Source of the DNA: Cliona cf. orientalis | Lineage: Eukaryota; Porifera; Demospongiae; Clionaida; Clionaidae | Length of the DNA: 64,000 nt | NCBI GenBank assembly: GCA_963930775.1 | Contig: OZ005706.1 | Location: 186,001-250,000, forward strand | Reading direction: 5' to 3' | In this document: piece by piece, positions 6,049-63,994 of the stretch | How the letters are laid out: every line of letters begins with the position of its first letter | Position numbering within the stretch: position 1 is the stretch's first letter | The notes under the pieces: model-generated | Told to the model about the DNA's origin: nothing | Seen by the model: the letters and a program-made list of their open reading frames with translations, nothing else | The model's database searches: none | Translations under genes and position numbers: made by a program

Positions 6049-8134
<2,086 letters not shown>

Positions 8135-8355
8135 CCAATAATTATTATTCATAGCAGTTTATTAACTAGTCAAATTAATAGGGGCCTTAGAAGATCATTT
8201 TTAATAATATTATTGTGTGATTAACAATCTATTAGTATTAATTTTAGTAGAATGTCATAATAATAATTCCTATGTTGGAGTTATAATTATCAAGTTTGCT
8301 AGCGCGATTTTGTGTAATGTCAGCTAGTGAGCCAAATTTCATGACAATGACAATG
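8135..8355. other. Convergent 3' junction between the GPR180-like gene and CCDC39
   Basis: 221 bp of AT-rich sequence lie between two facing stop codons. They must hold both 3' UTRs. No AATAAA is obvious on the plus strand. Confidence 0.6.
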
Positions 8356-11300
8356 TTAGCTTGGTCCAATGGTGAGGTCCAGATCTTTCTTGCTCCCTCT
8401 TTGTCTCGGCTGGCTGCTCCTTGAAGAAGAAGCTCTGGAGCTAGCTCTCGAGCTGGCGTTGGAGGAGGGAGGTCGCGATGACTGCCTTGAGCTAGCCACA
8501 CTGCCACTGCCTGTCTTAGAGGGAACTCTCCTGCCAGCTCCTCCTCCTCCTAGTGAACTGGTGCTACTGCGAGGGGACATACCTGCAGGCACAAGTGCAA
8601 AGGGTAAGAGAGAGAGAGAGAGCTCATAAGGTCTTAATTTAGCAACAATAATTATTAATAACCATTAGTGACACTCAGTAACCATCCATATACACCCATG
8701 CATTGTATTAGATTAAGTACAGTAATAATATTATTATTGTGCATGTATGAGGATTACCTTGTCTAGGGGTGGTGGATGATGACTTGCTCAGATCCACATC
8801 TCCAATGTTGATAGCCTTTGGAGTGCTGGGCGTGGCTGAGAGCTGGGAGGCGGAGCTCCTGTGTATGTGTATGTGTATGCGTGATATTATTTCTTACATC
8901 ATGATGATGTAATATATAACGCATTGACACATCCCAAATCCAGTGCTATACTCACTTTACGTGAAAACAAAACAGGAAATGCCCAGGATTCCTACGTATC
9001 CCAAATTCAGTGCTATACTCACTTTACGTGAAAACAAAACAGGAAATGCTCGGGATTCCTAGCTAGCTAACACAACAGATTATCACTGATGGTTACCTAA
9101 CAGATGATGCAGTGCTGAGCTGGCTGACGGAGCTCCTAGCGGAGGACAGGGTGGAGCCCGTCCTGCTGGCCGTGGGTGAAGGGGGAGGGGGCAGCCCGGC
9201 CTGAGAGAACAGCAGCTGGAGGGTGGACATCATGTCTGGATTGTTGGCCGCCTTGCTGCCAAGCTGCTGGATCACAGAGTTGCTGAAATCTCTCATCTCT
9301 CTCAGCTCTATGTCCCTCTCCACTTCCCGGGGGGTGTGGCCGGACCCTTTCTGCTTTGATTTCAACTCCTTTACTAATTTGATTGTCTGTGTGGGGGAAT
9401 AATATTATGAATGCACAATCATCTTGTTGCGTTGTAGCCTCAGCTACTTCGGCATCGTTATGGTGTGATTTCCTTTACCTGTTTGCTGACTCTCTCTTTC
9501 TTGGCTTTGAGTTGCTCTAGATCTCTATCGAGCTGATTTATCGCATTTTGCTTTGCCTCCAGGTCAGAGGTCAGTGTGGCCTCGTCAGATTTCAATGATG
9601 ACAGGGTCCTCTCCATAGCCTATGCAATGCATATAGACATTCATGTACACAAATGTGCTCCTGCTAATGCTGCATCGCATGGAAAAATTGAAAATTACCT
9701 TTAAATCTTCCTCCAACTGTTTGACATGTCTCTTTCTTATCTTATGCTTGTCTAGAGCTGCTCTCCACTGTCCCTCCAGAGTCTCAAGCTGCCCTATCTC
9801 TTCACCTAAAAATCACACAATCATTGATAAAATTAATAATAATTATTATTATTGCAAATAATGTTGATCAGCATACTCGATTTGTCCACTTTGGTGAGGC
9901 TCCTCCTGTAGCCTTCATTCTTGGAGTTCATCAGAGCAAGAGTGTTCTCCATTGCCCTATAATAATGCACAGCGCTAATTAATTTTATGAATATCACACT
10001 TTCATGGTGCCGTGGAGATATTTTGGCAAAGTTAATAACTCATCTACATGTACCACCCCTCTCTCTTTCACCTGATCTCCCTCTCTGCCTTTCTGATCTT
10101 GCTGTCGAGTTCATCTCCCTCTCTCTGCAGCTCCTCTCTCTCTTGCGCTGCCTTGATGACGTAGTAAGCCTGTGAGTGTTCCTCCCCGTCGTCTGCGGGA
10201 GGGGCCATCGACACACTAAGGATCTCATAGCGTTTACGGAGTTTATCTATTTTGGATATTCGCTCGTGTAGCTCAGCACTGCATAATAATGTTGCCATAA
10301 TAATGAGTAATATTATCGTTTCATGGTAGTGGCTCACTTGACAGTCTGTCTCTCTGATTCACAGCTCTTGATCTGAGCTTTCAACATGTCCTTGTGTACA
10401 GATATCTCGCGACTTCTCTCTGACATGGCCTGCACAAGATATAATACACCAGTAATATTTTTTACAGACATTCATTGATCATAATCCCCAATAACTAAAC
10501 TTCTCTCTCTAACTCACTGTATCTAGCTGAAGTTTTCTTTTCTCCAGTGACTGGACCTCTCCAGCGTGGGAGAACAGTCCGTCCCTGAGCCTCTTGATCT
10601 CGAGTTTGGTGATGTTCTCGTCGACCATGAGGCTTTGCTTCCCTCCCACCACCTTCTTCAGCTCCCTCTGGGTACTGTCAATGTGGAGGTTGATCTCATC
10701 TGTAAAAACAGAAAATTAGTAGTTAGTAGAGTTTGGTAAATTCTAAAAAAGCATACCAATCTTTTCTTCAAGGTTATCTTTCTCCTTCTGCCTGGTCTCT
10801 AGTTGCCTGTTGATCCTCCTCAGGTCCTCCGTGAGCCGCTTGAGCTGGCTGCGGAGGATATGCTCCTCCCCCTGCTGCCGCTCCCACTCACCCTCAAGAT
10901 CCTAGTAATCAGTGTGATTATTAATTTCACATCTATAGATACAAGGCTAGGTAGCTCTGTATGCCAATTAATACCGTATAGGCGGAAAAATTGGCGGTTT
11001 GATTCGTACTCCCTTATACATGTATGGCGATCCTGTACCAAACCGCCAAATTTTATATCCACTAATATTCTTGCAATAGCGATTTTGGGCTCAACCGCCA
11101 GATTTAATTCCCGTCAATATTTCTGGCTATACGGTACACGAAAACAGAATTTTATACATTTTCATGCATCATCTACAGAACTGATACTCTATTTCACTCA
11201 CAGCTATTCTTGTGTTGAGGGCCAGCTTCTCATCATCCGTCCTCTCCCCCTCCATTCTGTTGAACTTGTGCTGAAGCTGCTGTAGCTGAAAGTCCTGTGT

Positions 11301-12084
11301 GTAGAGTATCTCCTGCTGCTTCAGTGCTTCCTCGTCCAACTTGTGGATCTTGGATCGTAGATTTCTCACGGAGGCCCTTCCTCCCTGGATCTCCGCTTGC
11401 ATGGTAGTCTCTTTCTGCTTCAGCTCAAACAGCTCCTGGGCGTGCTTGAATTGTCTCTCTCTCAGTGTGCTGAGCTCTTTCTCCAGCTGCCTGACTGTTC
11501 CTTCCTCCTGGGATAGCATCTCATCCATCTTCTGGGCCCTCTCTTCTGAGGAGAGGGTCTTCTGGGTGCTCTTTTTGAGCTCCTGTTGTAGTAGTTCACG
11601 CTGCTTCTGGGTAGTCTCAAGCCTACACAAAGTTTAAATAAAGTACAATGCAATATATAGTATATTGCACATGATGAAATTTAAAATTTTCTAGCTGATA
11701 CGCTCTGATTTCATCAACAATTCACATGAAGGGCCCCCTTCTTATCAAGCTATAATAAAGGTGGAGCCTGGCCCCATGAGATTAAAATTTAACATGATTT
11801 TATGTACTTTTTCCTTCTGTCCCTGATCTCCCTGGTCAGCTCCCTGCTCTGAGCTCTGGTGCTGTCTAGGTCGCTAGCCACTCGGTCTACGGAGTACTTG
11901 AGTGTCTCCAGCTCATCTCTGAACTGGATTCTGCTGGCCTCGGCATCTTGGTGGCCCAGCCTCATCTTAGCTGACAGCCTCTCTGCATCGTTGAGCTTCT
12001 TATCTTTCTCAGAATTGTTCTTTTTCTCGTTGTCATAAAATTCCTATATTGTTGGTGAAATGTGTATAGGAGGGAGAAAGAGAA

Positions 12085-12127
<43 letters not shown>

Positions 12128-13513
12128 GCGTGCATGTTTGTTTGTATCATAGGAATGATACTTGGCAGATACTCAATTATCTACTAGTCGGCCATGTTGA
12201 GCGCGGGCAGCGTAGACACTGTGACTTTCACACCGTTGGCACTTGAAGAACCACACATCACAACCATTCACACCAACACACCAACACACGTGTAGCTCAA
12301 CAAGGCCTATTTGTAGCAGCAGTGAGTCAACTCACCTGTTTCTCTCTAATATGGTTCTCCTTTGCCTTCACTTCGGCTTTCAGTCCTGCCAATTCCTACA
12401 GATTTAAACATACCCATATTATATGAATAGAAAGGGACATGCCCCTACAATCATGCTCGCCTAATTAATACAACTCACCCCCGCACACTTGTCCATTTCC
12501 TGGTCTCTTCGTTTCATCTGGTCGATGATCTGCTCCCACTGCTGAATCAGCACCTCTCTTTCCTCGTGTGCGATTCGGAACTCCTCTGCTGTCTTGTCCA
12601 TTTCGATTTGAGCCGTCAGTGTCTCTGTCACCTCGTTGTTCAACGTCTTCCTTTGCTTCGCACAAGACTCCGTAAGGTGCTCCAATTTGAGGGTGAGTGC
12701 CTGTCAATTAGTAGTAGTGTCTTAATTAAAGGGGCAGCCTCTTCCGTGCATTTTTTTTGTTTGGGAAGGGGGGGACAGGCTAACCTTAATTTTGCTTTCG
12801 TCCGCCCTGGCGTATTTTGCGAGAGTCATGGTGTCTTCGTCTTGCCTTGCCGACTCCTCTAGCCACGCCTCCAGGGCCTGCTGGTCCCAGTTCATCTGAG
12901 ACTTGAGTTGGTCCGTCTGCTGGTTTGTTCGGAAGATCGTATTCTGAGAGAAAGAGAGAAAAATCGTAATTATATTAGCAGTCTATAATAATGGACTATG
13001 CCTCTCATTTGTTTGTATGTACCTCGTAAATGTTCATTTTCTCTTTGAGATCTTCTCTCTCCAGATGGAGTCGTCTCATTTCAGTCTTCAGACGACCCTC
13101 CTCCCGCTCAGCTACACACACACACACAGTGCCACCTCAGCTAAAATTATAACTCCTGTGTTAATTACTAATTACCTATCTGTTTCATGTGATCTTCTGA
13201 TTCCACATCTCTTTTCCTGGCTTCAAGAAGACCCTACAAAATTGATGTAGTTAGCCGCACCCACACCCCTCCAAAGCTTGACTGCAGGTGTATTATGTAC
13301 CTGTGTTTGCTGCAGCTCCTGCCTGACATTTCTGAGGTGGTCGCTGATGGCCTGGGCACGGTCCTTGTTCTCATCAATCTGCAGCTGTAGAGAGTTGATT
13401 TCTCTCTCCTTCTTCTGTACTTTGGACTCCAGCTGTTTGTTCTCGGCGTTGGCCACTGGTAGGCCGAGCTGATCCAAGTCTATCCCGCCACTTTCTAAGT
13501 CTAGGGCCGCCAT
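8356..13513 (-). CDS. CCDC39: CCDC39, axonemal molecular ruler coiled-coil protein
   Basis: CCDC39 pairs with CCDC40 to form the 96-nm ruler that positions radial spokes, inner dynein arms and the nexin-dynein regulatory complex on ciliary doublets. Eighteen exons close in frame to 1009 aa: 13301-13513, 13176-13233, 13023-13111, 12785-12943, 12479-12700, 12336-12395, 11808-12043, 11202-11622, 10757-10901, 10518-10699, 10338-10429, 10072-10278, 9877-9956, 9699-9805, 9479-9619, 9097-9386, 8758-8858 and 8356-8582. The protein is almost entirely coiled coil. Family-specific stretches are [11 protein letters not shown] (exon 1), [17 protein letters not shown] (exon 4), [20 protein letters not shown] (exon 5), [18 protein letters not shown] (exon 8) and [19 protein letters not shown] (exon 12). 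The tail is Ser/Arg-rich, as in vertebrate CCDC39. A consensus X-box lies just upstream. Confidence 0.95.
8932..9061. repeat. 67-bp tandem duplication in CCDC39 intron 16
   Basis: Two adjacent copies (8932-8998 and 8999-9061) share CAGTGCTATACTCACTTTAC and AAAACAAAACAGGAAATGC with only a few differences. It is intronic and probably neutral. Confidence 0.85.
10972..11136. mobile_element. Small inverted-repeat element (family A, copy 1)
   Basis: A 165-bp element in CCDC39 intron 8 begins TACCGTATAGGCGGAAAAAT and ends with CTATACGGTA; the reverse complement of the end matches the start. Internal TTGGCGG and CCGCCAAA segments also pair. It has no coding capacity. The same structure recurs at 39608-39781. 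A TA target is suggested by the TA at both ends. The class is a MITE-like, non-autonomous DNA element. Confidence 0.75.
12085..12125. repeat. (GA)n microsatellite in CCDC39 intron 6
   Basis: About 20 near-perfect GA dinucleotides lie close to the exon 7 acceptor. On the coding strand this is a CT tract. Confidence 0.85.
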
Positions 13514-13728
13514 GATGACAACTGCTTTCTAGTTCTTGTTTGAAGGCGTTGCTAAGTAACGAAATGGGCGGAGCATCGTATGCGACTGCACGTCACATCT
13601 GCGCATGCTCAGATCCTCGATACAGAAGTTCCGTTTCCCGTTTCTCACAAGCCATAAAGCATCACCTTTTTGGCAGCCAAAGCAAAAGTCTATCAATTGG
13701 TTTTACTTGAAAGCTTCATTTCTGTGCG
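13514..13728. promoter_or_regulatory. Divergent promoter region between CCDC39 and the Dok-like gene
   Basis: 215 bp separate the two start codons. The interval contains an X-box at 13548-13560 next to CCDC39, and TGCGCATG-type sequence near 13600. The shared promoter implies the Dok-like gene may also respond to RFX factors, because the X-box is near-palindromic. Confidence 0.6.
13548..13560. promoter_or_regulatory. X-box (RFX-binding motif) upstream of CCDC39
   Basis: GTTGCT-A-AGTAAC fits the RYYNYY-N(1-3)-RRNRAC consensus at every position. It lies 34 bp before the CCDC39 ATG. RFX factors drive ciliary genes through such sites in animals. Binding here is inferred from sequence alone. Confidence 0.7.
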
Positions 13729-16192
13729 ATGTTCAAGAGAGGCGGACTGATCAGTCGCTCGCTGCATGCGCCGCGCGGAGTCAACATCCATGGCGAGTCG
13801 AAGCAACCACTCGGTCCCGCGGCGAGCAAAATCAAAAGAAAGTTCTCATGGGCCAGTTCCAGAGTGCGAGGTGCGGTCAGCGAGAGCGCTCTCACTCACC
13901 GGCAGCTGGTGTTGAAAGAGGGATTTCTGTACAAACCTGGATTCCTAAGAATTGTAAGATAATAATGCTAATAATGCGGTCACTCGTGGAACAAATTTGG
14001 GGTTTTGTAGTAAACACTCGTGCAGTTTGCAACAATAATCTATCGTAATTTTTGTCGTGCAGGGTGGCAGAAAGCGGAGGTGGTGTGTTTTGCGCACCTA
14101 CAACCAGACCGAGGCCAGTCTCGATATCTACACCGATGAGACCAAGAATCGCTATAAGGGCAGCGTGACTCTGGATCGCGATGTCTCGCCCATGCTCGTC
14201 GTGAAAAACTACGACAAGAAGAAGAAGACTGCCAAAAATTGCTTCCTGTCGATCAAAGTGGCCAAACACAGCTACCAATTTGCAGCTGACTCCTTCAAGG
14301 AGCTGAGGGAGTGGGCGGCTCTGCTCAGACAAGCCATTGACAATGGTAAGTCAGCCAAAAATTAATTCTAAATTGTTGGCCTAGCTACTATAATACAATC
14401 TATAACCAGTAAAACAAACTGATGTAAATGTAAATTGGTAAGGTATTAAATTTAATCATTTTCACCATTGAATGCTGCAGGCCATATCTACTCTGGCAAA
14501 GTGACAGAGCCCCAGTGCATTGAACAAGGAACAGTCAACGTCAAATTTCACATCAACTGCATTGCTCTGGTTTGCCCCCTCACAGAGGCGCCGATCAAGA
14601 AATGGCGACTAGACCACATCACCTCGTTTGGCCAGTGCGGAGGAATTTTGACGTTCGAGTGCTGTTCCACGTGTTCCGAGGCCAGCACGGCAAGATGCTG
14701 CATAAATATAATTCAAGAGAAGCCCTCCACCATCCTCAACTTAATGGAGAAGGCCATCAGGAATAACCCAAACACTGGGGAGATCCATTATGAAAGGAGC
14801 ATCCTGGGTGATATCTACCACTGTGATCACGACTGCTGCCAGACTCAACGGCTGCTACCGGCTTTCTCTGATCCAAATATCTTCCGTAGCTCAACGGCAA
14901 GTCCACAAAAGGGGATAACCACAGTGCCAGTCGATGTACACGCAGATTTCGATATTCCTTCCAACACACTTGGTAGCAATGATTCAGGCCTCCCTGGCAC
15001 CCCAAAGCAGCCTGATGCACTGAGCATCAACAGCAATATTCCATCGCCAACGCAGCAAAGTTCAAGGAGCTCCCCTAACAGATCAGGCAGGTACCAGAAC
15101 CATCGGCTAAGAAGCATGAGCACGACTGAGGTGGGTCAGGTATCTCCTTACCTTGGGGACGTCACGATGCAGTACGCCAGGAGACAGAGTGATGAAAGTC
15201 AGAGGACGTCATCGTACAATAATGGCAGCAATGGAACAGCTCCGCAGCAGGAGGGTACCCGCAGGAGACTGGTCTATGCAGCCGTTCAACCACCAAATTC
15301 GGCAAGAAAGAGTGCAGCAATTGAAGAAGATTCAGTCACTTATAGCACGGTGAATGTCACTTCACCAGGGTCAGAGGACAGGCGGAGAAGTGGGGGGTTA
15401 GTACCTCTAGATGAAAATGATGGAATTTATGATTATCCCCCCATTGAGCCAAGCTACTGGGATATCGGTGGAGACAGTGCATTCTCTCCCCCTGGTACAC
15501 CACTAAGAGATGGTGGAAATCGCAAATCGTCAGCTCAGTCGACGTTGAGTGTTTACGAGCCAGGCAGTGATATTCGTGAGAGAGAGGAAGATTTTGAGGA
15601 GCTACCCCCAGTTCCAAAGCATAATCGTAGGACACGACCCCCTACCAAGGAGCTGGTCAAGTTGAACAGTACAGGAACAAATGTGTCAGCCAGGCATAGG
15701 CTACACAGCACTGGGGATGTCTTAGAATCGCGACCAATGAAAACAAGTAGTGCCTATGGACATATGGGCAGTATGGACAACCTCGACCAAGCTGGACGAA
15801 ATCGATCCCATTCTCTTGCCAACCCACTAGCAGTAGAGTCTCGTCTGGGAAATGCAGAATTTCTAAGCAAACTTCACGAAGAGGATGAAATGTTGACTCG
15901 TGTGCTTGCAGCTTCGAGAAGGGAGAGAAACGAAGAGGTTATAGACGAGAACCGTGTCTATCTCTCTCCAATCTCTCAGCGCCATCGCATGTCCTCTCTC
16001 TCCCCTATCAACTCACGAAGTAACGTAGACAAATTCTTGACCAAGAAAGCTAGCGACACGGTCCGAGGCTACGCATACAAGATACAAATTCCTCTCTCAA
16101 ACACTGAGTATGACGTACCAAGAAGAGCCGCACCTGCTCCAGACTTGACCAATTTAAGAAGTGATGCACCTCCAAAGCCTTTGAGGAGTTAG
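13729..16192 (+). CDS. Dok-like PH-PTB docking protein
   Basis: Three exons (13729-13953, 14063-14345, 14481-16192) give 739 aa. After a basic N-terminus, a PH domain spans about residues 60-168 (LVLKEGFLYKPG, RKRRWCVLRTYN, ADSFKELREWAALLRQAI). An IRS-type PTB domain occupies about residues 172-275 (VNVKFHINCIALVCP, WRLDHITSFGQCGGILTFEC). The long disordered tail carries tyrosines in SH2-ligand-like contexts: YAAV near 435, YSTV near 456, YDYP near 484, YGHM near 594, YLSP near 661 and YDVP near 711. Proline-rich patches (ELPPVPKHNRRTRPPTKE, APPKPLRS) could bind SH3 domains. PH plus PTB plus multi-Tyr tail is the Dok/IRS architecture. It would act at the membrane as a substrate of tyrosine kinases and a scaffold for SH2 proteins. 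Dok fits better than IRS by size. The exact orthologue is not resolved. Confidence 0.85.
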
Positions 16193-17150: not shown

Positions 17151-49669
<32,519 letters not shown>

Positions 49670-49840
49670 TCAAAACAGTGGCCCGCCATAAGGGGAGAAC
49701 AGGTTGTCATGGTAACTAGTTCACTAATTACATCATACCTTGAGCCACACCTCCACGGCCACTATAATTCTTAACCAACCACGCCCACTTTCTAATTTGC
49801 AGATTGCAGCTCGGAGCAGAGATCAAAGACGAGATCGAGA
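49670..49840. promoter_or_regulatory. Divergent promoter region between DNAH2 and the gasdermin-like gene
   Basis: 171 bp separate the two start codons. The interval contains an X-box at 49703-49716 close to DNAH2. Both 5' UTRs must be very short. Confidence 0.6.
49703..49716. promoter_or_regulatory. X-box (RFX-binding motif) upstream of DNAH2
   Basis: GTTGTC-AT-GGTAAC matches RYYNYY-N(1-3)-RRNRAC at every position. It ends 33 bp before the DNAH2 ATG, nearly the same spacing as in CCDC39. It lies about 125 bp from the gasdermin-like ATG. Confidence 0.7.
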
Positions 49841-52800
49841 ATGGCTGCTCAAACTCTTTTCAACAGGACAGTTGGCTTCCATCTTCCTTCTGCTATCCCG
49901 ACGCAGCTGGAACGCATCGATGAATTCGGGATCGGGAAGGTACTGATCTACTCTAAGAAGCCGAAACGATTCACTCCGTGGCGCAAACACGAGCTGTCGT
50001 TCACTGGGTGGTCGATTTCTAGCCTCCTCAGCACGCAAGCCGAAGACCCGCCGCTAAAGATAGCGACCGCAAGCAGCTTTATGTTCGACCTGGGCAAAGG
50101 GTCTAGCTCGGCTACCGTACAAGTCAACCTCGACACTGAACTAAATCTTCGCGATGCGCTTCTCAGCTTGAACGCCAAGCTCAATGTTGACGAACAAAAG
50201 AAGCTGAACATCACGGCGGACTTTGGAAAAGTCACTCACGTTTCTACCGACCTCCTCACCAGCTGCTCGTCCAAAAAGCTCCACGTGAACACGGAGCACC
50301 CGATAGTGCAGGAGGCGATGGGGAAGGGAGGTGCAATGTTTGTTATAACGTCAATGTACACCGCTGAGCACTGCAACGTCCAGGTGAATATTTCAGGCAG
50401 CATGGACGAGACTCTCGGGGCTGGAGTCAAGCCTGGCGGCGGAGGAAATGAGACAGTGAAAGATTCCGACACAACCACACACGGTAAACTTTCAATATCT
50501 GTCAGTTTGTGGTGTCTTCCGTGTATTGCGTGTACATGGTAAAATGCTAAACAGATGTCAATCCACGTTATAATTCCTATTTTGAACAGTTTGTAAGGTG
50601 TAAATGTTTTAGTATAGTAACTACACTTTAACGATACTTTTGCAGTGCTGAATCGTAGTGAGCCTACGCCCATTGCCTTCCTCCTGTTGAGGCTGGAGAT
50701 TGGGAAGCTGGGTGAGATCAATCCTCGGATTAACACACACCTGAGGAATGTCAAGGTGAGAGAGCAGAGGTTACGGACAATGATTAGACAAACACGTGGT
50801 TACAGATAAGGGGCATGTATTCCCATTATGCTGTTTAATCCTGCGATTGGGATCCACAGTAAGTATGATGAGGTCCTTCCTTGGATTGCATAAATTTTTT
50901 GTATCCATGAATTTTTGCCAACAGAAAACCTGCAGCTGCCCACAATAATTTCTTTGAAGTACATAGTCTCATTAGAAATAGTTGGCAATTGGTGTGATGC
51001 CATGAAATTCTATAATATTTTTGTGGTATATTATTAATCAACTGCTTCATTGGTAGACCATACCTATTGCATCATTGACTGCTGAATGAATTGATTTGGT
51101 TATTGTTGCCTTGCTAGAGTGACTATGAGGTACTGAACAAGCTGGGAGCATTCCCCAAACCTCCTAGCTCCAAAATGGTGAAGCTGCCTCAATTACAGAC
51201 GCAGGAGTCCCAAGATTTTCATGACTGGATCATTATTGATGTCGTAGAGGAGGTGAGGGCAGAGTGGAGAGGCAGAATAAATTTTTAGGGAGAGAAGGTC
51301 TTTAGCTATGAAATAGTAGGAGTAACGAAATGGTGTTTATTAGTTAGTCGGTATGCTTGTAGTTAATTCATATCTACTCGAGTGTATTGCATTCTACAAA
51401 TTTTAGGCATAAATTAGTGAAGATAATATATAGAATTTCTTAGTAAAACTAGCTAATCAGTAGCTGCATGTTTTGGTAAATTGCTATATGCTTCATGGAA
51501 GTGACCTCTTTGAAAACATCTCGTATTTCAGAGTGAAGCGGCCACTAGAGAAGCAGAGGCTAAAGTTACTGGAGATAGTGAGGCGTCCATTGTTGAGCCT
51601 CAGACAGTAGCTAGCAGTGAGGCGGGCCCACAGGCTCCCGTAGAAGAGGTTGCCACGGTGAAGGTGTCCTCCGATCTAGGCTTGGCTCCACCACCTCCTT
51701 CTAATGCACAGGTACTCAATGGACTAGTTACCTAACCCTTTATCACGATGGGCAGCTGCAGCAGTACATTAGAGCTGACTCCCCATTGTTGCTATTGTAC
51801 AGTATTTTGCACTAGTCTTCATGTTCTCACGGGTGTTATCATTAAGGTTATTGTCATTAAGGGTATAGTATGCCTTCAATGCTCCCTCATGGTGGGCTTC
51901 AAAAGTGTAAAGTTTACCTGTCAACGTACTTGAGTTACACCACAAAATTTAATTTATTTCGGGAGCACTTGAAGATATTTGCATTGGCTGCTGAATCTCT
52001 ATGGCCTATTGTGATTCTAGTGTGGCGTATAGTATAGTATGCTGTACATGTGCATGTGAATACAACATGTACATGTACATGTACATGTACTTGTGGGTGT
52101 ACGTACAGACATGTATACAGTTTGTATAGCAGTAGCAATAAGCATTGTGCTTCTGCTTACTTTGGAAGATGGTGTAAGTGCATGAGATCAGGATATCTTC
52201 TCATTGCTTTTTTTTGTGCTTCAGGTGAACACCCCCTATGCCACGCCCATGAGCGAGGTACAGAAAGTTGCTGACTCAGCCAGCGGTGGTCACGAAGAAA
52301 CAGACTCACCCACCATTGACCAGCACTATGTCTACAGCCTCAGGGACTTTCAGCCGTTTGAAAGTACCACCTACCAAGGTAGATTACTTATCCTTCATTG
52401 AAGAAGCTTTCTCGATGTAATATTCGGAGACTATAGTGTGCAAGTAAATATTTAAAATTTTGCCGACTTGTTGCAGGTATCCTAGGTGAAGTGGATGAGT
52501 GGGTGGAGCCTCTTGTATCCAATTCGCAGCTGCACAGTGCCTACCTCAACTACATTCGTCCTCCCCGGACTCTAGAGAAACTCAAGGCCCTCACCACATT
52601 CGTGAGTTTCATACAAAATCTGTATAGCCAGCGGAATCTTCCATTGTTCCCAGATCTGCTTCAGGCTGTCTTTTCTATAATAATTGTTGATATTGTGCTA
52701 TAAACCCTACCCCATTTGTCTTGCATGGCGTGTGCAAAATGTGGTGTAGTGTCAGGTCAGCTGCAAATGCAGCTGTGATCCCCCCATGATCATCGGATCA

Positions 52801-53711
52801 TTGTTGATGTTGTACTATGAACCCTACCCCATTTGCCTTGCATGGCGTATGCAAAATGTGGTGTAGTGTCAGGTCAGCTGCAAATACAGCTGTGGTCAGA
52901 TCATTTTGTTGATTACAGCCATTCATTAGAGCCAGGAGTACGGAACACACGTAGCAGTAGTACAAACACCTCTTTACAGATTTGACAATGTATCATAACT
53001 ACCCTTGTACAATAACCAATCTTTTTGAACAATATGACTTTTTTATCTGTAGCTTCTTGAGCATGGGAATGCCCTGCGGACTCACAAGCTGGTGCCTGTC
53101 AACACCAACAAAGACATCGATGCCATCATGACAAAGCTGAGCCAAGAGGTCAAGGTTCAGCTGGATGAGGTGACATCGCTGATTGTGACGAGCGAGGCTT
53201 TGGACGAGTTCCCCCAGTTCCTGGTGATGAAGGCAACGGAGCTGCCCAGCGAGAAGAGACAAGCACTCATCAACGTGGTAAGCTAGGGGATCAGTCATCA
53301 CTAAGATGATCAGCACACAATTACGACTTAGTGATTGTCAGCTTCCTTTTAAAGAGCCGTGCAACAAACATCATAATATTTCATCCACACCTCATTTCAG
53401 CATCAAGCTGTACAAAATCAGCGCTCTTATAACTATTATTATAGCAATGCACTTAATCTCGTTTCTCTATAAACATTATATTGTTCCTCAATCTGCAGAT
53501 CTGTCAAACTCCATATGGCACTAACCGTCATGTCTACTCCGACGTTGGGCCCTACAAGGATCCTGACATCTACCCATTCATGGCCAAGATGGGTTTCTCT
53601 CTCCCTTCGACCAAGAAGAACCTCATCTTCACCAGTGGGGACGACACAGAGGAAGACATCCTGGCAGCTGGTCTCATCATGCTCAAGGCTACCGTACCCT
53701 CACCTAACTAG
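49841..53711 (+). CDS. Gasdermin-like protein (putative pore-forming cell-death effector)
   Basis: Eight exons (49841-50483, 50646-50755, 51118-51252, 51532-51711, 52225-52378, 52477-52601, 53053-53277, 53499-53711) close in frame at 594 aa. The first 250 residues resemble the gasdermin E/pejvakin pore-forming domain in layout: an amphipathic start, KVLIYSKKPKRFTPWRKHEL at the KK(K)RF position, the FGKVTHVSTDLL strand, PIVQEAMGKGGAMFVIT, then PTPIAFLLLRLEIGKL. An acidic, Ser/Pro/Ala-rich linker follows (exon 4, about residues 297-356). A C-terminal half of about 190 residues comes last and may be the autoinhibitory domain. In the family, protease cleavage in the linker frees the N-terminal domain to form membrane pores. 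I cannot identify a cleavage site with confidence. Family assignment rests on pattern, not on a search. The C-terminal half is not recognisable to me. Confidence 0.7.
52683..52916. repeat. 117-bp tandem duplication in intron 6 of the gasdermin-like gene
   Basis: Two copies (52683-52799, 52800-52916) share AACCCTACCCCATTTG, TTGCATGGCG and GCAAAATGTGGTGTAGTGTC with few differences. Confidence 0.85.
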
Positions 53712-53913: not shown

Positions 53914-55675
53914 TTATGACTTTTTTGGTTTTGGGGCAAAGAAGCTAGTTATTGATTTCATTCCTGTCTTGTCCACTTTGGCCAATTTCCTCTGATTCAC
54001 ACTCAGCTTGCTGTTGTCCTGTAATAAAAAAAAAAAATTTTTTTAATTATGGCTATATATTATAGCAGAGCACAAGAGTAGAGGTGAGAGAACAGTTGAC
54101 ACTTTTGGTCACCTTGACTGATTTCGTTGGCGGTGGAAGGGTGCCCATCTTCGTATAGTCCTCAAGAGGCTCAGGTACGCCGCCATTACAAACAGCCATT
54201 TGATCTCGCTTCTCCTCCAAATGAGGTCTCTTAGCTGGGGGCACTCCCTCTTCAACCACCAACTCTCCCCTGCAAATTTATCAAAAATTAATGATAACTA
54301 ATAATAATAGACCAATGATATTGTAATTTAATGATGATCTTGTTGATTTCTATACCTGTAGCTGTCCTCCAGTTCAGTGGCTAGCTCCTTGGGTAGATAT
54401 TCGCACACCATACCACAGGCATACTTCATATACTCACCTTTTCAAAGTTAAATCAAGAGAAAGTATATATTAGAAGTTAAAACTAGCCCATTGGCAGGAT
54501 TGAAAATGGCATACTTTTTGAAACATCACTTCTCTTGTTGGTCCTGACGAGCATGGAGCTCTGGGAACCCGTACCCACGTACACCCCCTTCTCCTCCAGA
54601 CTAGAGGCCTGGGCCGCCACCTTTGACCTCAGCCACGACACAGCCTTCTCTTTGCTGAACTTATACACTGTCACCTCATCTGTTATGCCTGAGAGGGAGA
54701 AAGAGAGAGAGAGAGAGAGAGGAGGGAGAGAATTACAACATAAAGTTTCACCCACACCAGCGAGCTAATGCTGAGGTGAAGCTTACATTTGAAGTCGCAC
54801 ACATGCTGCCATTGATTTCTCTGCACACAGTCGCTGAGAATGTGACAGCTGTTGCAGTCAGGGTCCTCCAGGATGGCATCCAGCGTGGTGAATTTCCCTG
54901 ACTGACACAAAAAAATTGTCAACTAAAAAAAAACACCAACTCCAGCTTACGATGTACATGCATTATACATACCTGTGATGCTTTGATGAGGTATGGCAGT
55001 GCTATGAAGAGGGGGTCAACTGGTGTGCACATGAATAAACTGCCATCTGAAAAAAAATCAATCAAATATTTTCCAGCATTACATTCATCTCTTCTCCTCC
55101 CATGCACCTGTCTATATACTCACCTGTTTGTATGGAGTTGTCCACAAACCAGGAGCGAGGCTCATCACTGAATTTCAAAATCTCACATAAATCACCGGAA
55201 TCATCCGCTTCGGAAGCTGATCTCCACAGATAGCGACGATTGGAGCCTGGATGAGGTGTTCAATTAATTAATAATCATTTTTAGCTATGCTGCACACAGT
55301 GATAAATTAATTTACCGGTTCTTGGGTCACGGAGGGTGGCAAAGGAGAGTGCTGATTCAGCAGATAAATCACTCCGATCACCAGCTCTACACACTTTATC
55401 TGAAAGAGAATTTAGTAAAATTGAACAATTTCACTCAATTGGGGAATAAGTTGTGTACCTGGCATCAAGCAGATCCACTGGTCTGGCTGCACTGGGAGGC
55501 CACGCCCCCTAGGTTTCTTCTTCTTGGGCACATAGTCCTCTTTTGGCGCGCTGTCTTCCTGGCTCTGGCTTTGACTCAGAGACGACGAATAACCAGACGA
55601 CGACTGGCTGTCTGAAACGGCTTCACTTTCATCACGGCTATGAGATCGAGATCGAGTCAGCATCGCAGCATGCAC
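53914..55675 (-). CDS. RNASEH2B: Ribonuclease H2 subunit B
   Basis: RNASEH2B is a nuclear, non-catalytic subunit of the RNase H2 trimer that removes ribonucleotides from DNA and RNA from RNA-DNA hybrids. Nine exons (55459-55675, 55316-55399, 55124-55246, 54973-55046, 54787-54901, 54515-54688, 54356-54437, 54113-54269, 53914-54018) give 376 aa. Characteristic pieces are LCEILKFSDEPRSWFVDNSI, LFMCTPVDPLFIALPYLIKA, SGKFTTLDAILEDPDC, YKFSKEKAVSWLRSKV, EYMKYACGMVCEYLPKELAT and the LAKVDKTGMKSITSFFAPKP end. That end contains the PCNA-interacting PIP box (MKSITSFF). A Ser/Arg-rich and KKKKPRGRG basic N-terminal extension precedes the fold and could be a nuclear signal. It makes the protein about 60 aa longer than the human one. 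The start could be the ATG at 55675 or the one at 55663. Confidence 0.93.
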
Positions 55676-55826
55676 ATGTATACAGATGTGCGCTATTTAG
55701 AGCAAATCCCGCCTTTTTTCTATAGCTCTATTTACCCGACTTAAAGAAATTTTGAATCACAAAAAATCAGGACACCAATACATGCAATAATATGAAACCA
55801 ATAATCTACAGATGATTTGGTGAGAC
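55676..55826. promoter_or_regulatory. Divergent promoter region between RNASEH2B and the NALF-like gene
   Basis: 151 bp separate the start codons, the shortest such gap in the window. I see no X-box. Confidence 0.5.
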
Positions 55827-57480: not shown

Positions 57481-58491
57481 TTAAGGTACCATTTAATTGC
57501 GTGGGCGTGAGCGTCAGGAATGGCTAATTCAATTAGCGAATCGTGAAGGGGCGTGGCCGAAGAGGCCATACGAGTGCTTTTGGTCGAAGGTGGGCGTGTC
57601 CAGAATCGGCCAGGGATGATTATGCGCGTGTAATTAGCGACCGGAAGTGGCCCCTGAAGAAAACACCGGTAATTGCCCACTTCAAAGCAAGATCAAAGCA
57701 TTCTTTCTTAACTATTAACCGCAACGACTTAAAAAAAAAAAAAGCCTAATTAGGCCTAATTAAGCATGTGGGCGTGTTCCTGGCACTGTGTGGAGTGTGT
57801 GCGTGTGCGTTAATGCAGGTTTTATTGCTTCCGATTGGGCGTGGCTTCACGGGCCAGTGCTTGGATATCGGGGCCTGGGACTTGGCCGCGGCGATAGGTG
57901 GGCGTATCCCGGATGCGGTGGTGACCTTTGCACCCGGCCAGGAGGCTTCGGGGGCGTGGCAGGAGGTCAAAGGTGAGGCCATGTCAGTTAATGAGGCACT
58001 GTACGCCGGTGCGATCGAGGGGACTGTACGGCTGGACGGAGGCTGACGATGGTTTGAAGCGGATGTGGTTGCGATGACGTGTTGTTACCCCGCCCACACA
58101 GGAAATGAGGTGAGCTCTTGTGTGGGCGGTGTGGCAGAACGGCCTCCGAGTGTTTGTGTGTGTTTTGGCCTTGAGGAAGCTGTGTGTTTTAATTGGGATT
58201 TATTGTGGGCTTCCGGTGGACATCCGGTGGCCAGTCGGCACGTGATTGAGAATGATGGTCCTTGAGGCGCAGGGTGGTGCTGTTTTGGGCGTGGCCTGGC
58301 CCCTCCCTTCCGGCTCGGCTTCCGGTCCATGGAGGATATTAAATGAACACTTCCGGCTCTAGCAGCCACACCCCTGAGACCTGTGCAATTAAAAGGGCGT
58401 GGTTACACAACATGCACCTCACTAATGACTTTGATGTGGTTTAGGTGTCATATCCCCTACCTCACGCCCACGCAATTTAATGGTACCTTAA
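57481..58491. mobile_element. 1-kb TTAA-flanked inverted-repeat element inserted in the TRIM copy 1 5' region
   Basis: 31-bp terminal inverted repeats with one mismatch lie at 57481-57511 and 58461-58491, beginning TTAAGGTACCAT and carrying GCGTGGGCGTGAG. Both ends carry TTAA. Copy 2 has, at the matching place (about 61780-61792), an unoccupied site. The interior is GC-rich with many GGGCGTGG/CCACGCCC words. The longest open frame (57768-58046) does not resemble a transposase. TTAA targets are typical of piggyBac-like elements, so a non-autonomous derivative is the best guess. Confidence 0.8.
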
Positions 58492-58506
58492 ACAGTTTCT
58501 AAAGCG

Positions 58507-60691
58507 ATGGCGACCGGCGGAGAAGCCAGACAGAAAGGAGTGGAGGAGCTGGAGCAAGAGGTCACGTGCCCCGTCTGCCAGGACCACTTCCAAGAGCCCA
58601 AGATCCTTCCCTGCCTTCACTACTACTGCAAGGGATGTATCGAGGCGCTGGCCAAGAGAGCAGGTGGCCCCAACCAACCCTTCCCCTGCCCGGAGTGTCG
58701 CACCCCCACCCTCCTACCTCAAGGCGACCCTGACCAGCTGCAAACAGCCTTCTTTGTCAACCGAATGAAATAGGTCCATGCTAAACTGGAGAAGGTAGAG
58801 GGAAAAGTGGAGGCCAAATGTGAAATGTGCTGTGGGGGTGTGGCCACTGCCTTTTGCCGACAATGTGCTGAATTTATCTGTAACGAATGTACCAGATCAC
58901 ATCAGAGAATGAAGGTATTTGCAGGGCATAAAGTATCTACTCTGCAGGAGCTGAAAGAGGGCAGAGCTAAGGAGATCATTGCAGCCAAGTCAACTCCACC
59001 TCCAATGTGTAAAATCCATGAAGAGCAAGCCAAAATCTACTGCTACGACTGCAAGACCCTCATTTGCCGAGATTGTGTCATCGATGAAGACCACAAGGAC
59101 CATGAATATGAGTTTGTGAAAAAGGCGATTCCTAAAGTACAGAATGGCACCGATCACTGAAAGCCAGAAAGGTATACAGGATGCCATCAAAAATGTTGAA
59201 AGTGCAAAAGCTGAAGTTATTGCAATGGACGAATCAATGACAACTTCAATCAAGCAATCGTTTCAAGAGCTTCGAGACATTATTGATAAGCAAGAGAAAG
59301 AGCTGTTAGCAGAAATAGCTGCCACTGTAGAGAAGAAGATGAATAACCTCACCGTGCAGCAGAAGAAATTGGAGATGAGTTCAGGCACCATCCAGAGCCT
59401 CGTGGAGTTTGTCGAGAGAAATGTTGAGAATATAACAGATGAAGAACTGATGACCTTCCACACCCAAATGATGACCAGGATCAGCGAGGAGACAGAGAAA
59501 CAGCGGCTAAGCGACCTAGAGCTTGACCCAGTGGAGGAGGCAGACAGAGAGGTGACCATCGACTGTTCAGGTGAACTGAAGAAGCTATGCCAACAAAATG
59601 CTAAGATGGCTGTCGTACCTGTGAATGTAGCCATTGAGAATATTGACGCTAGTGTGGGTCAAACCTCAAAGGTAGAAATGTGTCTAACCTTCCAAAATGG
59701 TCGACCAGCTTTGAAGATGCAGAATAAGAAGGTTATTCTGACATCCAAAGTGGATGGTTCACATGTGCCCATCAAGATAGTTCGGAAACAAGCGAACACC
59801 TACCAGATAGAGTTCACCCCTACAGTGAGAGGTCGACACCAGCTGGAGGTGATGTGTAACGACCAGCCTGTGTTGAGAGAGCCAGTTCAGATATTTGTGA
59901 AGATCCCACCCACCATGCTGGGAGAACCAGTTAGGAGAATTATTGATTTAGAAGATAAAGTTAGATATGTTGCTTTTAATTCATCAGAAGAGATGCTGGT
60001 GACTGTAGATGATAAAGTTACAATATTTGACAAAAATGGAAAGAAATTGCATTCCTTCACTAACAAGAAATTGAGTGCAGCTGCTGGAATAGCAGTGGAG
60101 GGGTCTAACATTTATGTCACAGACATTTCTAATGGAATTCTATTGAAATTTGACAAGACTGGCAAACTTTTGAAATCAGTTGGACAGAAGGGAAGTGGAG
60201 AAGGAAAGTTTAACAAACCATTAGGGCTGACTGTTGTTGGTGATGAAGTGATAGTGTGCGACTCTGTCAATGATCGACTACAAGTATTCACCTCTGACCT
60301 TGTGTTTGTTCGACAGATTGGATCACAAGGCAGGGGCAACGGACATTTTCAAAATCCATGCGATGTCACTCATGATGGAGATGGAAATTTATATGTCACT
60401 GACTGGGGAAATGACTGTATTCAAATCTTTAATGTGCATGGAAAGTTTCTTCGCACTCTGATGTCACCAGGCCGTATTGCCAAACCATTTGGGATTACTT
60501 ATAGCGGAAGTCTAGTGCACATCACCCAGTGGATAGAAAATGGAAAGGTGCATATGTATCACAAGAACGGTGGTGAAGTCCATTCATTTCCATACGAGAG
60601 TACTCAATATTCTGTATGCGGTATAGCTGTGGACCTAGATGGATTTATCTATATTTGTGATTGTGATAGACACCAAGTGATAGCATTTTAA
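58507..60691 (+). pseudogene. TRIM-NHL gene, copy 1, disrupted (RING, B-boxes, coiled coil, filamin, NHL)
   Basis: Single-exon relative of copy 2, with an intact ATG and RING (CPVCQDHF...CLHYYCKGC...CPECR). Two lesions break it relative to copy 2. At 58771-58773 GAG has become TAG, right after the RING. Near 59135-59144 a 17-bp deletion shifts the frame between B-box 2 and the coiled coil. The remaining frame (about 59144-60691, 515 codons) still encodes coiled coil, a filamin-type Ig domain and NHL repeats (QKGSGEGKFNKPLGLTVVGD). TRIM-NHL proteins are E3 ubiquitin ligases, often RNA-binding through NHL. If expressed, copy 1 could make only an 88-aa RING peptide unless read through. Sequence is well conserved apart from the lesions, so inactivation looks recent, or one lesion may be a sequencing error. 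Confidence 0.85.
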
Positions 60692-60949
60692 TTCTTGATA
60701 ATTATTATGATATCAACAATAATATTATTACTTGTTCTTCATGCAATAGTATAAGGCAGCTTTATAACAATCTCGATCTCAGTATCTGAACCCCTTTGGC
60801 CACGTGGAAAAAATCGAGGGTTCGGATAATTGAGGTTGGACCATATTATTTATTTTCTTTGTCAACATGTACAGTGACATTAATTACCATGCATGACAAG
60901 ATAAAAAAAAGGAATTATACAACTCAAACTAGCTAGAGGCAGAACTAAC
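60692..60949. other. Spacer after TRIM copy 1
   Basis: AT-rich sequence with an ATAATATTATTA palindrome. Nothing coding was recognised. Confidence 0.5.
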
Positions 60950-61398
60950 CTTCTTCATCTTGACAGTCAGCAGGAGCAGCACAGAGGGAATATCTTTCTG
61001 GGCTATGTTAGACTGGACAGCTCGAAGCATCTTCTTTAGCTCCTTACAGGCTGTGTCCAAGGCCTCTCCAGAATGCTGCAGAGTGTGTATGTGTCCGTGA
61101 GAAAGCGTGTGAATGTGGTAAAGGGTCGTTATGAATCATATGCACATCAACATTGCAACATGCACAATTTTCGTAATCACTCTTTACGTGCACTCTTACT
61201 TAACACCCTATATAATAAAATAACACACTCTAGCTCACAGCATAGGCCTTGATGTTGTTGTTGACAGAGGTGATCCAAGCGTCTCTCCTCATTGGACGCA
61301 GCTGTCATGTAGAAGGTCCTGGACATGTGCTGGGCGTTGCTGATGGAAACAGTCTGACTACGGAATGCCTCAGCCACACCTTCAGTACCAAGGAGAGC
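60950..61398 (-). pseudogene. Two exon-like segments of an unrecognised gene, possibly PH-domain C-terminus
   Basis: Segment 61239-61398 is bounded by AG and GT and reads VSISNAQHMSRTFYMTAASN followed by a Trp-containing helix, like the end of a PH domain. It needs a 2-nt shift in a GAGAGA run (near 61285-61295) to continue as DAWITSVNNNIKAYA. Segment 60950-61075, also bounded by AG and GT, continues in the matching phase for 42 codons (HSGEALDTACKELKKMLRAV). No further exons are visible on either side, where the TRIM copies lie. I do not recognise the gene. It may be a fragment isolated by the TRIM duplication. Confidence 0.4.
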
Positions 61399-61514
61399 CT
61401 GGAATATTAGAATTAATGGTTAATTTATACATCAGCCACTATTAGATAAATTCATGACTTACACTCAAGGAAGCCGCAAAGTTGTTAGGCCTGTGCACAG
61501 CAAAACAGCGCAAC

Positions 61515-61643
<129 letters not shown>

Positions 61644-61803
61644 GGAAGTCTAGGAGTCCGACAACAATTATTTCTGAATTGGGAGTGAGACCCTGAAATA
61701 TTGAGGAAATCTAACGATTCCGAGCATGCGCATGAATATCATTATCGATTGGGCCTTGTATGCCGCGCCTTTCTCCTTGGTAATCAAAATAGTTTCTAAA
61801 GCG

Positions 61804-63994
61804 ATGGCGACAGGTGGAGAAGCCAGACAGAAAGGAGCTGGAGCAAGAGGTCACGTGCCCCGTCTGCCAGGACCACTTCCAAGAGCCCAAGATCCTTCCC
61901 TGCCTTCACTACTACTGCAAGGGATGTATCGAGGCGCTGGCCAAGAGAGCAGGTGGCCCCAACCAACCCTTCCCCTGCCCGGAGTGTCGCACCCCCACCA
62001 TCCTACCTCAAGGCGACCCTGACCAACTGCAAACAGCCTTCTTTGTCAACCGAATGAAAGAGGTCCATGCTAAATTGGAGAAAGTACAGGGAAAAGTGGA
62101 GGCCAAATGTGAAATGTGCTCTGGGGGTGTGGCTACTGCCTTTTGCCGACAATGTGCTGAGTTCATTTGCGAAAAATGTAAGGAGTCCCACGAGCGAATG
62201 AAGGTGTTTGCTGGACACAAAGTGTCTACTTTGACGGAGCTGAAAGAGGGTGGAGCTAAGGAGATTGTTGCAGCCAAGTCAACTCCACCCCCAATGTGCA
62301 AGGTTCATGACGAGCCAGCCAAGATCTACTGCTACGACTGCAAGACCCTCATCTGTCGAGATTGTGTCATCGATGAAGAGCATAAGGGTCATGATTACGA
62401 ATTCGTCAAGAAAGCTGCTCCTAAAATACAAAAAAAGCTGATGGAGCATCTGGCACCAATCATTGAGAGCCAGAAAGGTATACAGGATGCCATCAAGAAT
62501 GTTGAAGGAGCAAAAGCTGAAGTTGTAGCAATGGACAAGGCAATGACCACTTCAATCAAGCGATCATTTCAAGAGCTTCGAAGTATTCTCGACAAGCGAG
62601 AGAAAGAGCTGTTAGCAGAAACAGCTGCCACTGTGGAAAAGAAGATGAATAACCTCACTGTACAGCAGAAGAAATTGGAGATGAGTTCAGGCACCATCCA
62701 GAGCCTCATGGAGTTTGTCGAGAGAAGTGTTGAGAATGCAACGGATGAAGAACTGATGAGCGTCCACGCCCAAATGATGACCAGGATCAGCGAGGAGACA
62801 GAGAAACAGTGGCAAACTAGTGCTGAGCTTGCTCCAGTTGAAAATGCTGACAAAATGGTGATCATCGAATGCAAAGAAGAATTAAAGAAACTATGCCAAG
62901 AGAATGCCAGTATTGCAACTCTACCAATGAATATTATTGTGAATGACACTGAAGCCCAGGTGGGTCAAAGGTCACACTTGATCACTCACCTTACCCTCCA
63001 AGATGGTCAGCCAGCTAAGAAGATGCAGAATATAAAGGTGGTTCTGACATCCAAAGTGGATGGTTCACTAGTGCCCACCAAGATAACTCGGAAACAGCAG
63101 AACACCTACCAGATAGAGTTCACCCCGACAGTGAGAGGTCGACACCAGCTGGAGGTGATGTACAACGACCAGCCTGTGCTGAGAGAGCCAGTTCAGGTGT
63201 TTGTGAAGATTCCACCCACCATGCTGGGAAAAATAGTTAGGAGAATTGATGTAGAAGGTAGAGTTAGATTTGTTGCCTTTAATTCATTAGAAGAGATGGT
63301 GGTGACTGCAGGTGATAAAGTTATAATATTTGGCAAAAATGGAAAGAAATTACATTCCTTCACAAACGAGAAGTTGAGAGGAGCTGCTGGAGTAGCAGTG
63401 GATAGGTCTAACATTTACGTTTCAGATTTTAGTAACAACACTCTACTAAAGTTTGACAAGACCGGTAAGCTTTTGAAATCAGTTGGATGTGAGGGAAGTG
63501 GAGAAGGAGAGTTTAACAGTCCAACTGGGATGACTGTTGTTGGTGATGAAGTGATTGTGTGTGACCATGGCAACCATCGACTACAAGTGTTCACCTCTGA
63601 CCTTGTGTTTATTCGACAGTTTGGATCACAAGGTGAGGGCAATGGACAGTTTTTACGTCCATTGGATGTTACACATGATGAAGATGGAGACTTATATGTC
63701 ACTTATGGGGGAAATAACGTTATTCAAATCTTCAATATGCAAGGAGAGTTTTTTCGCACTCTGACAACTCCAGGCCATATTACCAAACCATTTGGTATTA
63801 CCTATTGCAGAAATCTAGTGTACCTCACCCAGTGGATAGAAAATGGAAAAGTGCACATGTATCACAAGAACGGTGGTGAAGTCTCTTCAATCCCATACAA
63901 AAGTAGCGAGAAGGATGTATGTGGTGTAGCTGTAGACCTAGATGGATTTATTTATGTTTGTGATTTTGACAGATGCCAAGTGATAGTTTTTTAA
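61804..63994 (+). CDS. TRIM-NHL gene, copy 2 (near-intact; start region frameshifted)
   Basis: Single-exon gene with, by position, RING 61856-61992, B-box 1 at about 62110-62220, B-box 2 at about 62297-62400, coiled coil 62415-62820, filamin Ig domain 62850-63210 and NHL repeats 63225-63994. The RING frame is open from 61793 to the stop at 63992-63994 but has no ATG before 62054. The expected ATG (61804, in the context AAGCGATGGCGAC as in copy 1) is out of frame because 8 bp present in copy 1 (GTGGAGGA) are missing just after it. From the in-frame ATG at 62054 it would yield 646 aa without RING. An upstream exon spliced at the AG at 61791-61792 could instead rescue the full protein. The likely role is an E3 ligase or RNA-binding regulator of the TRIM2/3/71 architecture. 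The paralogue is unresolved. Confidence 0.75.

Follow-up and report, generated by a model that had tools for sequence, protein, structure and literature searches.

A predicted X-box between an axonemal dynein gene and a gasdermin-like candidate in the sponge Cliona cf. orientalis

Organization of the locus

The stretch of DNA analysed here, hereafter the window, comprises 64,000 nucleotides of the sponge Cliona cf. orientalis (C18:186001-250000) and is taken from a 217-Mb genome of 149 contigs. Positions are those of the window unless a contig or another locus is named. Two of its genes stand head to head: DNAH2, on the minus strand, with its ATG at 49669, and a plus-strand gene, a gasdermin-like candidate, with its ATG at 49841. 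The divergent intergenic region that separates the two ATGs (49670..49840) has 171 bp, exactly as the initial annotation had described it. This spacer occurs as one copy genome-wide, and a second copy of the promoter, sought across the genome as a haplotig or a duplicate, was not found. A bidirectional promoter is defined by genes that stand head to head with their starts at most 1 kb apart; here the 171 bp are measured between ATGs and, judged from this spacing, the region may be such a promoter. Inside the spacer, the candidate 3' splice site TTTCTAATTTGCAG ends at 49802, so the plus-strand gene could have an intron in its 5' UTR and hence another start site. The spacer also contains CCACGCCC (49779..49786, plus strand), which we take to be a box of the GC/KLF type. 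It is placed 54 nt from the plus-strand ATG and is a candidate core element of that gene's own.

DNAH2 (27561..49669, minus strand), the inner-arm I1/f beta axonemal dynein heavy chain gene, was assigned by PDB phmmer, Pfam and a splice check. The 3' limit (27561) was guessed from open frames, the 3'-most family-matched exon being 30214-30822. DNAH2 is the top PDB match (phmmer) of two of the three dynein exons queried; the third has an I1 1-beta dynein at the top, with DNAH2 in the fourth and fifth places of ten. The Pfam domains DHC_N1, AAA_6 and MT were matched in three of the six exons scanned, and in the other three no Pfam domain was matched. Exon 1 occupies 49499-49669 and exon 2 starts at 49333. 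Exon 1 joins in frame to an exon aligning with residues 80-195 of DNAH2 (PDB chain 8j07_k9), which places the ATG at 49669 well. By these matches, the minus-strand gene is identified as the axonemal dynein heavy chain DNAH2. An intron of the gene harbours a minisatellite of about 1.8 kb (46780-48580); the same minisatellite, recognised by its translation, is found on C2 (L009, around 7570-7880), and is thus a dispersed repeat.

A second divergent pair is formed by CCDC39 (8200..13513, minus strand, ATG at 13513, 3' limit approximate) and a Dok-like PH-domain gene (13729..16192, plus strand, ATG at 13729, exon limits approximate), whose ATGs are 215 bp apart. The CCDC39 exon at 11169-11633 matches CCDC39 in the PDB (phmmer, E 4.2e-25), and the N-terminal exon gives a weak match to the Pfam CCDC39 family (E 0.00055, under the family cut-off). 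The initial annotation had proposed that a Dok-like gene is related to CCDC39 in the same way as the plus-strand gene is to the dynein. The layout was confirmed, both in the spacing and in the presence of an X-box. The label Dok, which comes from that annotation, holds only as far as the PH domain established here (Pfam PH, E 9.9e-7), and no PTB/IRS domain was detected by Pfam in the part of the gene from 14456 to 16192. The third divergent spacer of the window (55664..55826) has 163 bp and contains no strict X-box (as defined below); this third pair shows that the arrangement is common.

The X-box and its statistics

The X-box of the DNAH2 spacer, GTTGTCATGGTAAC, lies at 49703..49716, with the dynein ATG 33 nt and the plus-strand ATG 124 nt away; its half-sites are separated by 2 nt. 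It is self-complementary at 10 of its 14 positions, in keeping with the near-palindrome that had been noted initially. The X-box of the CCDC39 spacer, GTTGCTAAGTAAC (13548..13560), is separated from the CCDC39 ATG by 34 nt and from the Dok-like ATG by 168 nt.

The window was scanned with the strict motif GTTGYYN{1,3}RGTAAC, the reversed window serving as control. The two sites found are those at the DNAH2 and CCDC39 promoters, against none in the reversed window. Genome-wide, GTTGYYN{1,2}RGTAAC has 1377 matches (751 forward and 626 reverse) compared with 564 (272 and 292) in the backwards-read control, and the genome-wide counts correspond to a strict motif about once per 157 kb. The number of strict sites expected by chance is about 0.001 in each of the DNAH2 and CCDC39 spacers, and each spacer has one. 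A fortuitous match at DNAH2, which the recurrence of the motif at this frequency and the presence of some copies within repeats would favour, is already disfavoured and can hardly be credited: against the chance expectation per spacer stand two strict sites at nearly the same distance from the DNAH2 and CCDC39 ATGs, as well as a strict site only 24 nt from the ATG of DRC1.

The site at 49703-49716 is, by its letters and position, an X-box with imperfect inverted half-sites, a spacer within the range of 1-3 nt and a location near a ciliary start. Eight exon-level matches to RFX DNA-binding domains were found in the genome which, on this domain evidence, encodes an RFX transcription factor. The site at 49703-49716 is a predicted one, most likely bound by RFX.

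The motif by itself is a poor guide to ciliary genes. No ciliary gene was recognised at the 12 of the 1377 strict-motif sites that were read by eye, and this, together with the repeat copies, makes the strict motif alone unreliable as a ciliary marker. The X-box is informative through its position rather than through its sequence alone. The perfect palindrome GTTGCCATGGCAAC was also considered as a ciliary marker and rejected: it has 43 sites against none in the control, but several among the 20 of these 43 loci that were fetched are repeated copies, as judged by eye (L005-L007; L011-L012; L016 with L018). In L005, L006 and L007 the perfect palindromes adjoin near-identical copies of a single open frame, as though the site travelled with a mobile element. 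Another perfect-palindrome locus, L020, has coiled-coil-like exons. The exact sequence GTTGTCATGGTAAC is present seven times on one strand of C1:6897699-7073669 (176 kb), among the first 100 places listed, and these seven copies probably lie within a repeated element.

Ciliary genes and their divergent neighbours

The layout at DNAH2 was compared with that of other ciliary genes in a small set of five, of which CCDC39 and DNAH2 come from the window, and DRC1, DRC2 (the two PF14772 matches) and PACRG (PF10274) were obtained via family searches. All five have a divergent neighbour at most 276 bp away, the ATG-to-ATG spacers being 276 bp in DRC1, 275 bp in PACRG, 215 bp in CCDC39, 214 bp in DRC2 and 171 bp in DNAH2. 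In every case the X-box is closer to the ciliary ATG than to that of the partner. The distances to the ciliary ATG are 24 nt (DRC1), 33 nt (DNAH2), 34 nt (CCDC39), 57 nt (DRC2) and 66 nt (PACRG), and those to the partner ATG are 238, 124, 168, 143 and 195 nt, respectively. Both orientations of the half-sites are represented among the five X-boxes, with spacers of 1-2 nt. Three of these X-boxes (CCDC39, DNAH2 and DRC1) conform to the strict motif. The other two, at DRC2 and PACRG, match the looser form only and weigh less, because in the window this form is little more frequent than by chance, with 8 sites versus 5 in the reversed window.

The partners are of mixed types: Dok-like, gasdermin-like, HECTD1-like, aspartate dehydrogenase and IQ-motif. 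DRC1 (L046) has a PDB match with an E of 3.2e-119, and its neighbour, presumably HECTD1-like, gives a weak TRIP12-like Pfam match (E 0.091); a further looser X-box match, at position 860 of this locus, falls within the DRC1 coding sequence. At L047, a gene with a match to the NYD-SP28 family (E 3e-13), which we take to be DRC2, is paired with an aspartate dehydrogenase gene (NCBIfam, E 5.6e-12). At L048, spliced frames place the starts at 356 and 632, and the partner of PACRG is an IQ-motif gene. The IQ-motif gene has a second, strict X-box (L048:673-686) within its putative first intron, and consequently this partner may itself be ciliary. The element TCACGTGA lies at most 5 nt from the X-box in the promoters of DRC1 (L046:2361-2368) and DRC2 (L047:1035-1042), and neither the DNAH2 nor the CCDC39 spacer contains CACGTG; a pairing of E-box and X-box in some ciliary promoters is possible.

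For the sponge Amphimedon, the available part of PMC4773876 gives 18,054 genes (45%) as head to head, and 11,379 of them as having TSSs at most 1 kb apart. At this rate, tight pairs such as those described above are expected. The pair of the gasdermin-like gene and the dynein is one draw from a common arrangement.

The plus-strand gene

The gasdermin-like candidate gene (49841..53711, plus strand) is single copy and its family assignment is unconfirmed. It consists of eight exons, at 49841-50483, 50646-50755, 51118-51252, 51532-51711, 52225-52378, 52477-52601, 53053-53277 and 53499-53711. Every intron is GT-AG, and the exons form a single open frame of 594 codons.

The initial annotation had named this gene gasdermin-like, a name that no tool backed, whether Pfam, the PDB, the genome-wide PF04598 search or the fold search. 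The whole protein has no Pfam match at E 0.01, and its halves and fragments have no match to Pfam Gasdermin at E 10. The NCBIfam search gave no support for a gasdermin, and the PDB sequence search (phmmer, with a sensitivity limited by filters) gave no match. Searching the 217-Mb genome with the PF04598 profile produced no candidate. Relatives of the protein were not found in viral contigs, genome contigs or plasmids, nor were paralogues found in the genome, where the nine matches are its own eight exons and one chance match (E 2.24). The single-sequence AlphaFold2 model of exon 1 is a low-confidence fold (pLDDT 34.3), with no Foldseek match at E<=0.001 among the best 50 of 98; for a model of this pLDDT the fold search is uninformative.

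The empty Pfam, PDB and PF04598 searches argue that the gene encodes an unassigned sponge protein rather than a gasdermin, in which case the cell-death reading lapses. The literature points in the same direction: in the available part of PMC11508797, Porifera are given NLR and Caspase-1 only, without a gasdermin, and the earliest animal gasdermin is placed in 'Coelenterate'. In PMC9355259, as far as available, the earliest animal gasdermin is that of Placozoa, and the words sponge, Porifera and Amphimedon have no occurrences in the main text. We give real, if tentative, weight to an unassigned protein. Against it stand features of the protein that we take to be reminiscent of animal gasdermins. 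Within residues 40-47 lies a basic-aromatic K-x-R-F-x-x-W stretch which, by eye, resembles that of vertebrate GSDME/pejvakin in its spacing from the start. A later H-P-h-h-Q stretch presumably corresponds, again by eye, to that of vertebrate GSDME/pejvakin in the same respect, and a layout of two parts joined by a long linker would, we assume, suit a gasdermin. On the strength of these motifs, the gene may be a divergent gasdermin. The likeness to the animal gasdermins of the GSDME/pejvakin type lies in the N-terminal motifs and the overall layout of the 594-residue protein. The difference is that the protein has no profile, sequence or fold match in the searches made.

Other loci

Two tandem TRIM-type genes, both with filamin and NHL domains, occupy 58481-63994 of the window; RING and B-box domains were seen in addition in the second, of which the entire frame was scanned. 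Elsewhere in the genome, a search with a motif that we take to be of the silicatein type returned 4 sites versus none in the control. Three of them cluster within 5 kb on C12 (C12:3669638-3674600), and the two fetched from this cluster encode papain-family exons. The exon at L050 has silicatein alpha as its top PDB match (E 7.7e-27), followed by cathepsin L (2.5e-22). By these matches the genome carries silicatein genes and is most likely that of a siliceous demosponge.

Discussion

The pairing of DNAH2 with the plus-strand gene is probably ordinary genome packing. As a whole, we think it likely that the locus is a tight head-to-head pair in a compact genome, in which the X-box serves DNAH2 and the plus-strand gene is a bystander. 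RFX would act at 49703-49716 for DNAH2, and the plus-strand gene would start from core elements of its own, for example the GC/KLF-type box CCACGCCC. Any effect of RFX on the plus-strand gene would be incidental. The X-box is assigned to DNAH2 because of its short distance to the dynein start, 33 nt, similar to what is seen at CCDC39, DRC1, DRC2 and PACRG. Since the same layout is repeated in all five ciliary genes with mixed partners, the X-box looks like the dynein's element and the neighbour like a bystander. From the arrangement of the sequence, DNAH2 and the plus-strand gene probably have separate core promoters, and most likely they have no functional coupling.

The initial annotation had suggested that RFX couples the plus-strand gene to ciliogenesis, a suggestion that gains no support beyond the base rate, the five genes being alike and their partners mixed. 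True co-regulation by RFX would mean that the X-box drives both genes, and that the plus-strand gene is switched on in choanocytes and other ciliated cells. X-boxes, the sites of RFX, act regardless of orientation. The 124 nt that separate the X-box from the plus-strand ATG are well within the reach of RFX, so that co-regulation is possible. A single strict, near-palindromic X-box inside a spacer of 171 bp and the two half-site orientations found among the five X-boxes speak for it, and so does the bidirectional promoter of mammalian Parkin and PACRG, whose start sites are about 200 bp apart according to the available part of PMC5951884. Against it, the partners are functionally mixed in all five pairs, the X-box is always nearer to the ciliary ATG, and at DRC2 the gene of a metabolic enzyme occupies the very position that the gasdermin-like candidate has at DNAH2. 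Overall, we consider co-regulation unlikely.

The bystander arrangement can be compared with promoters already described. In the mammalian PACRG/Parkin promoter, as presented in the available parts of PMC5951884 and PMC3555705, a gene associated with the flagellum likewise stands head to head with one from a different pathway, at about 200 bp. The genes differ: the sponge PACRG pairs with an IQ-motif gene, and the DNAH2 pair is known from sequence alone. The bidirectional promoters of Amphimedon queenslandica belong, like those described here, to a compact sponge genome; in Amphimedon 45% of the genes are head to head, GC boxes are common and Sp1/GC-box enrichment is given for its promoters in the available part of PMC4773876. 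On the other hand, the term RFX has no occurrence in the main text of that paper, as available. With the ciliary promoters that carry RFX X-boxes, the sponge sites share the paired half-sites, the spacer of 1-2 nt, the location no more than 66 nt from the starts of five axonemal genes and the presence of RFX genes in the genome. The sponge spacer differs in serving a second gene too, and RFX binding here is predicted.

If packing alone explains the pair, the locus is another sponge case of ciliary genes that share short spacers with unrelated genes and keep the X-box on the ciliary side. It is quite improbable, in our view, that the plus-strand gene is a true, divergent sponge gasdermin tied to cilia via the shared RFX site, a lytic executor made together with the choanocyte axoneme. 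Choanocytes are rapidly shed in sponges, and this is perhaps where a cilia-tied gasdermin would be used. Were the gene both a gasdermin and driven by RFX, choanocytes would have a link between cell death and ciliogenesis.

The identity of the plus-strand gene is the more interesting point, ahead of the coupling of the promoter. Should the gene prove to be a gasdermin, the history of animal gasdermins would extend back to sponges, contrary to their absence from Porifera in the available part of PMC11508797; other papers may report one. Such a gasdermin, if confirmed, would extend the account of PMC9355259, in which, as far as available, the placozoan form is the earliest. A confirmed sponge gasdermin would be of greater value than the shared promoter.
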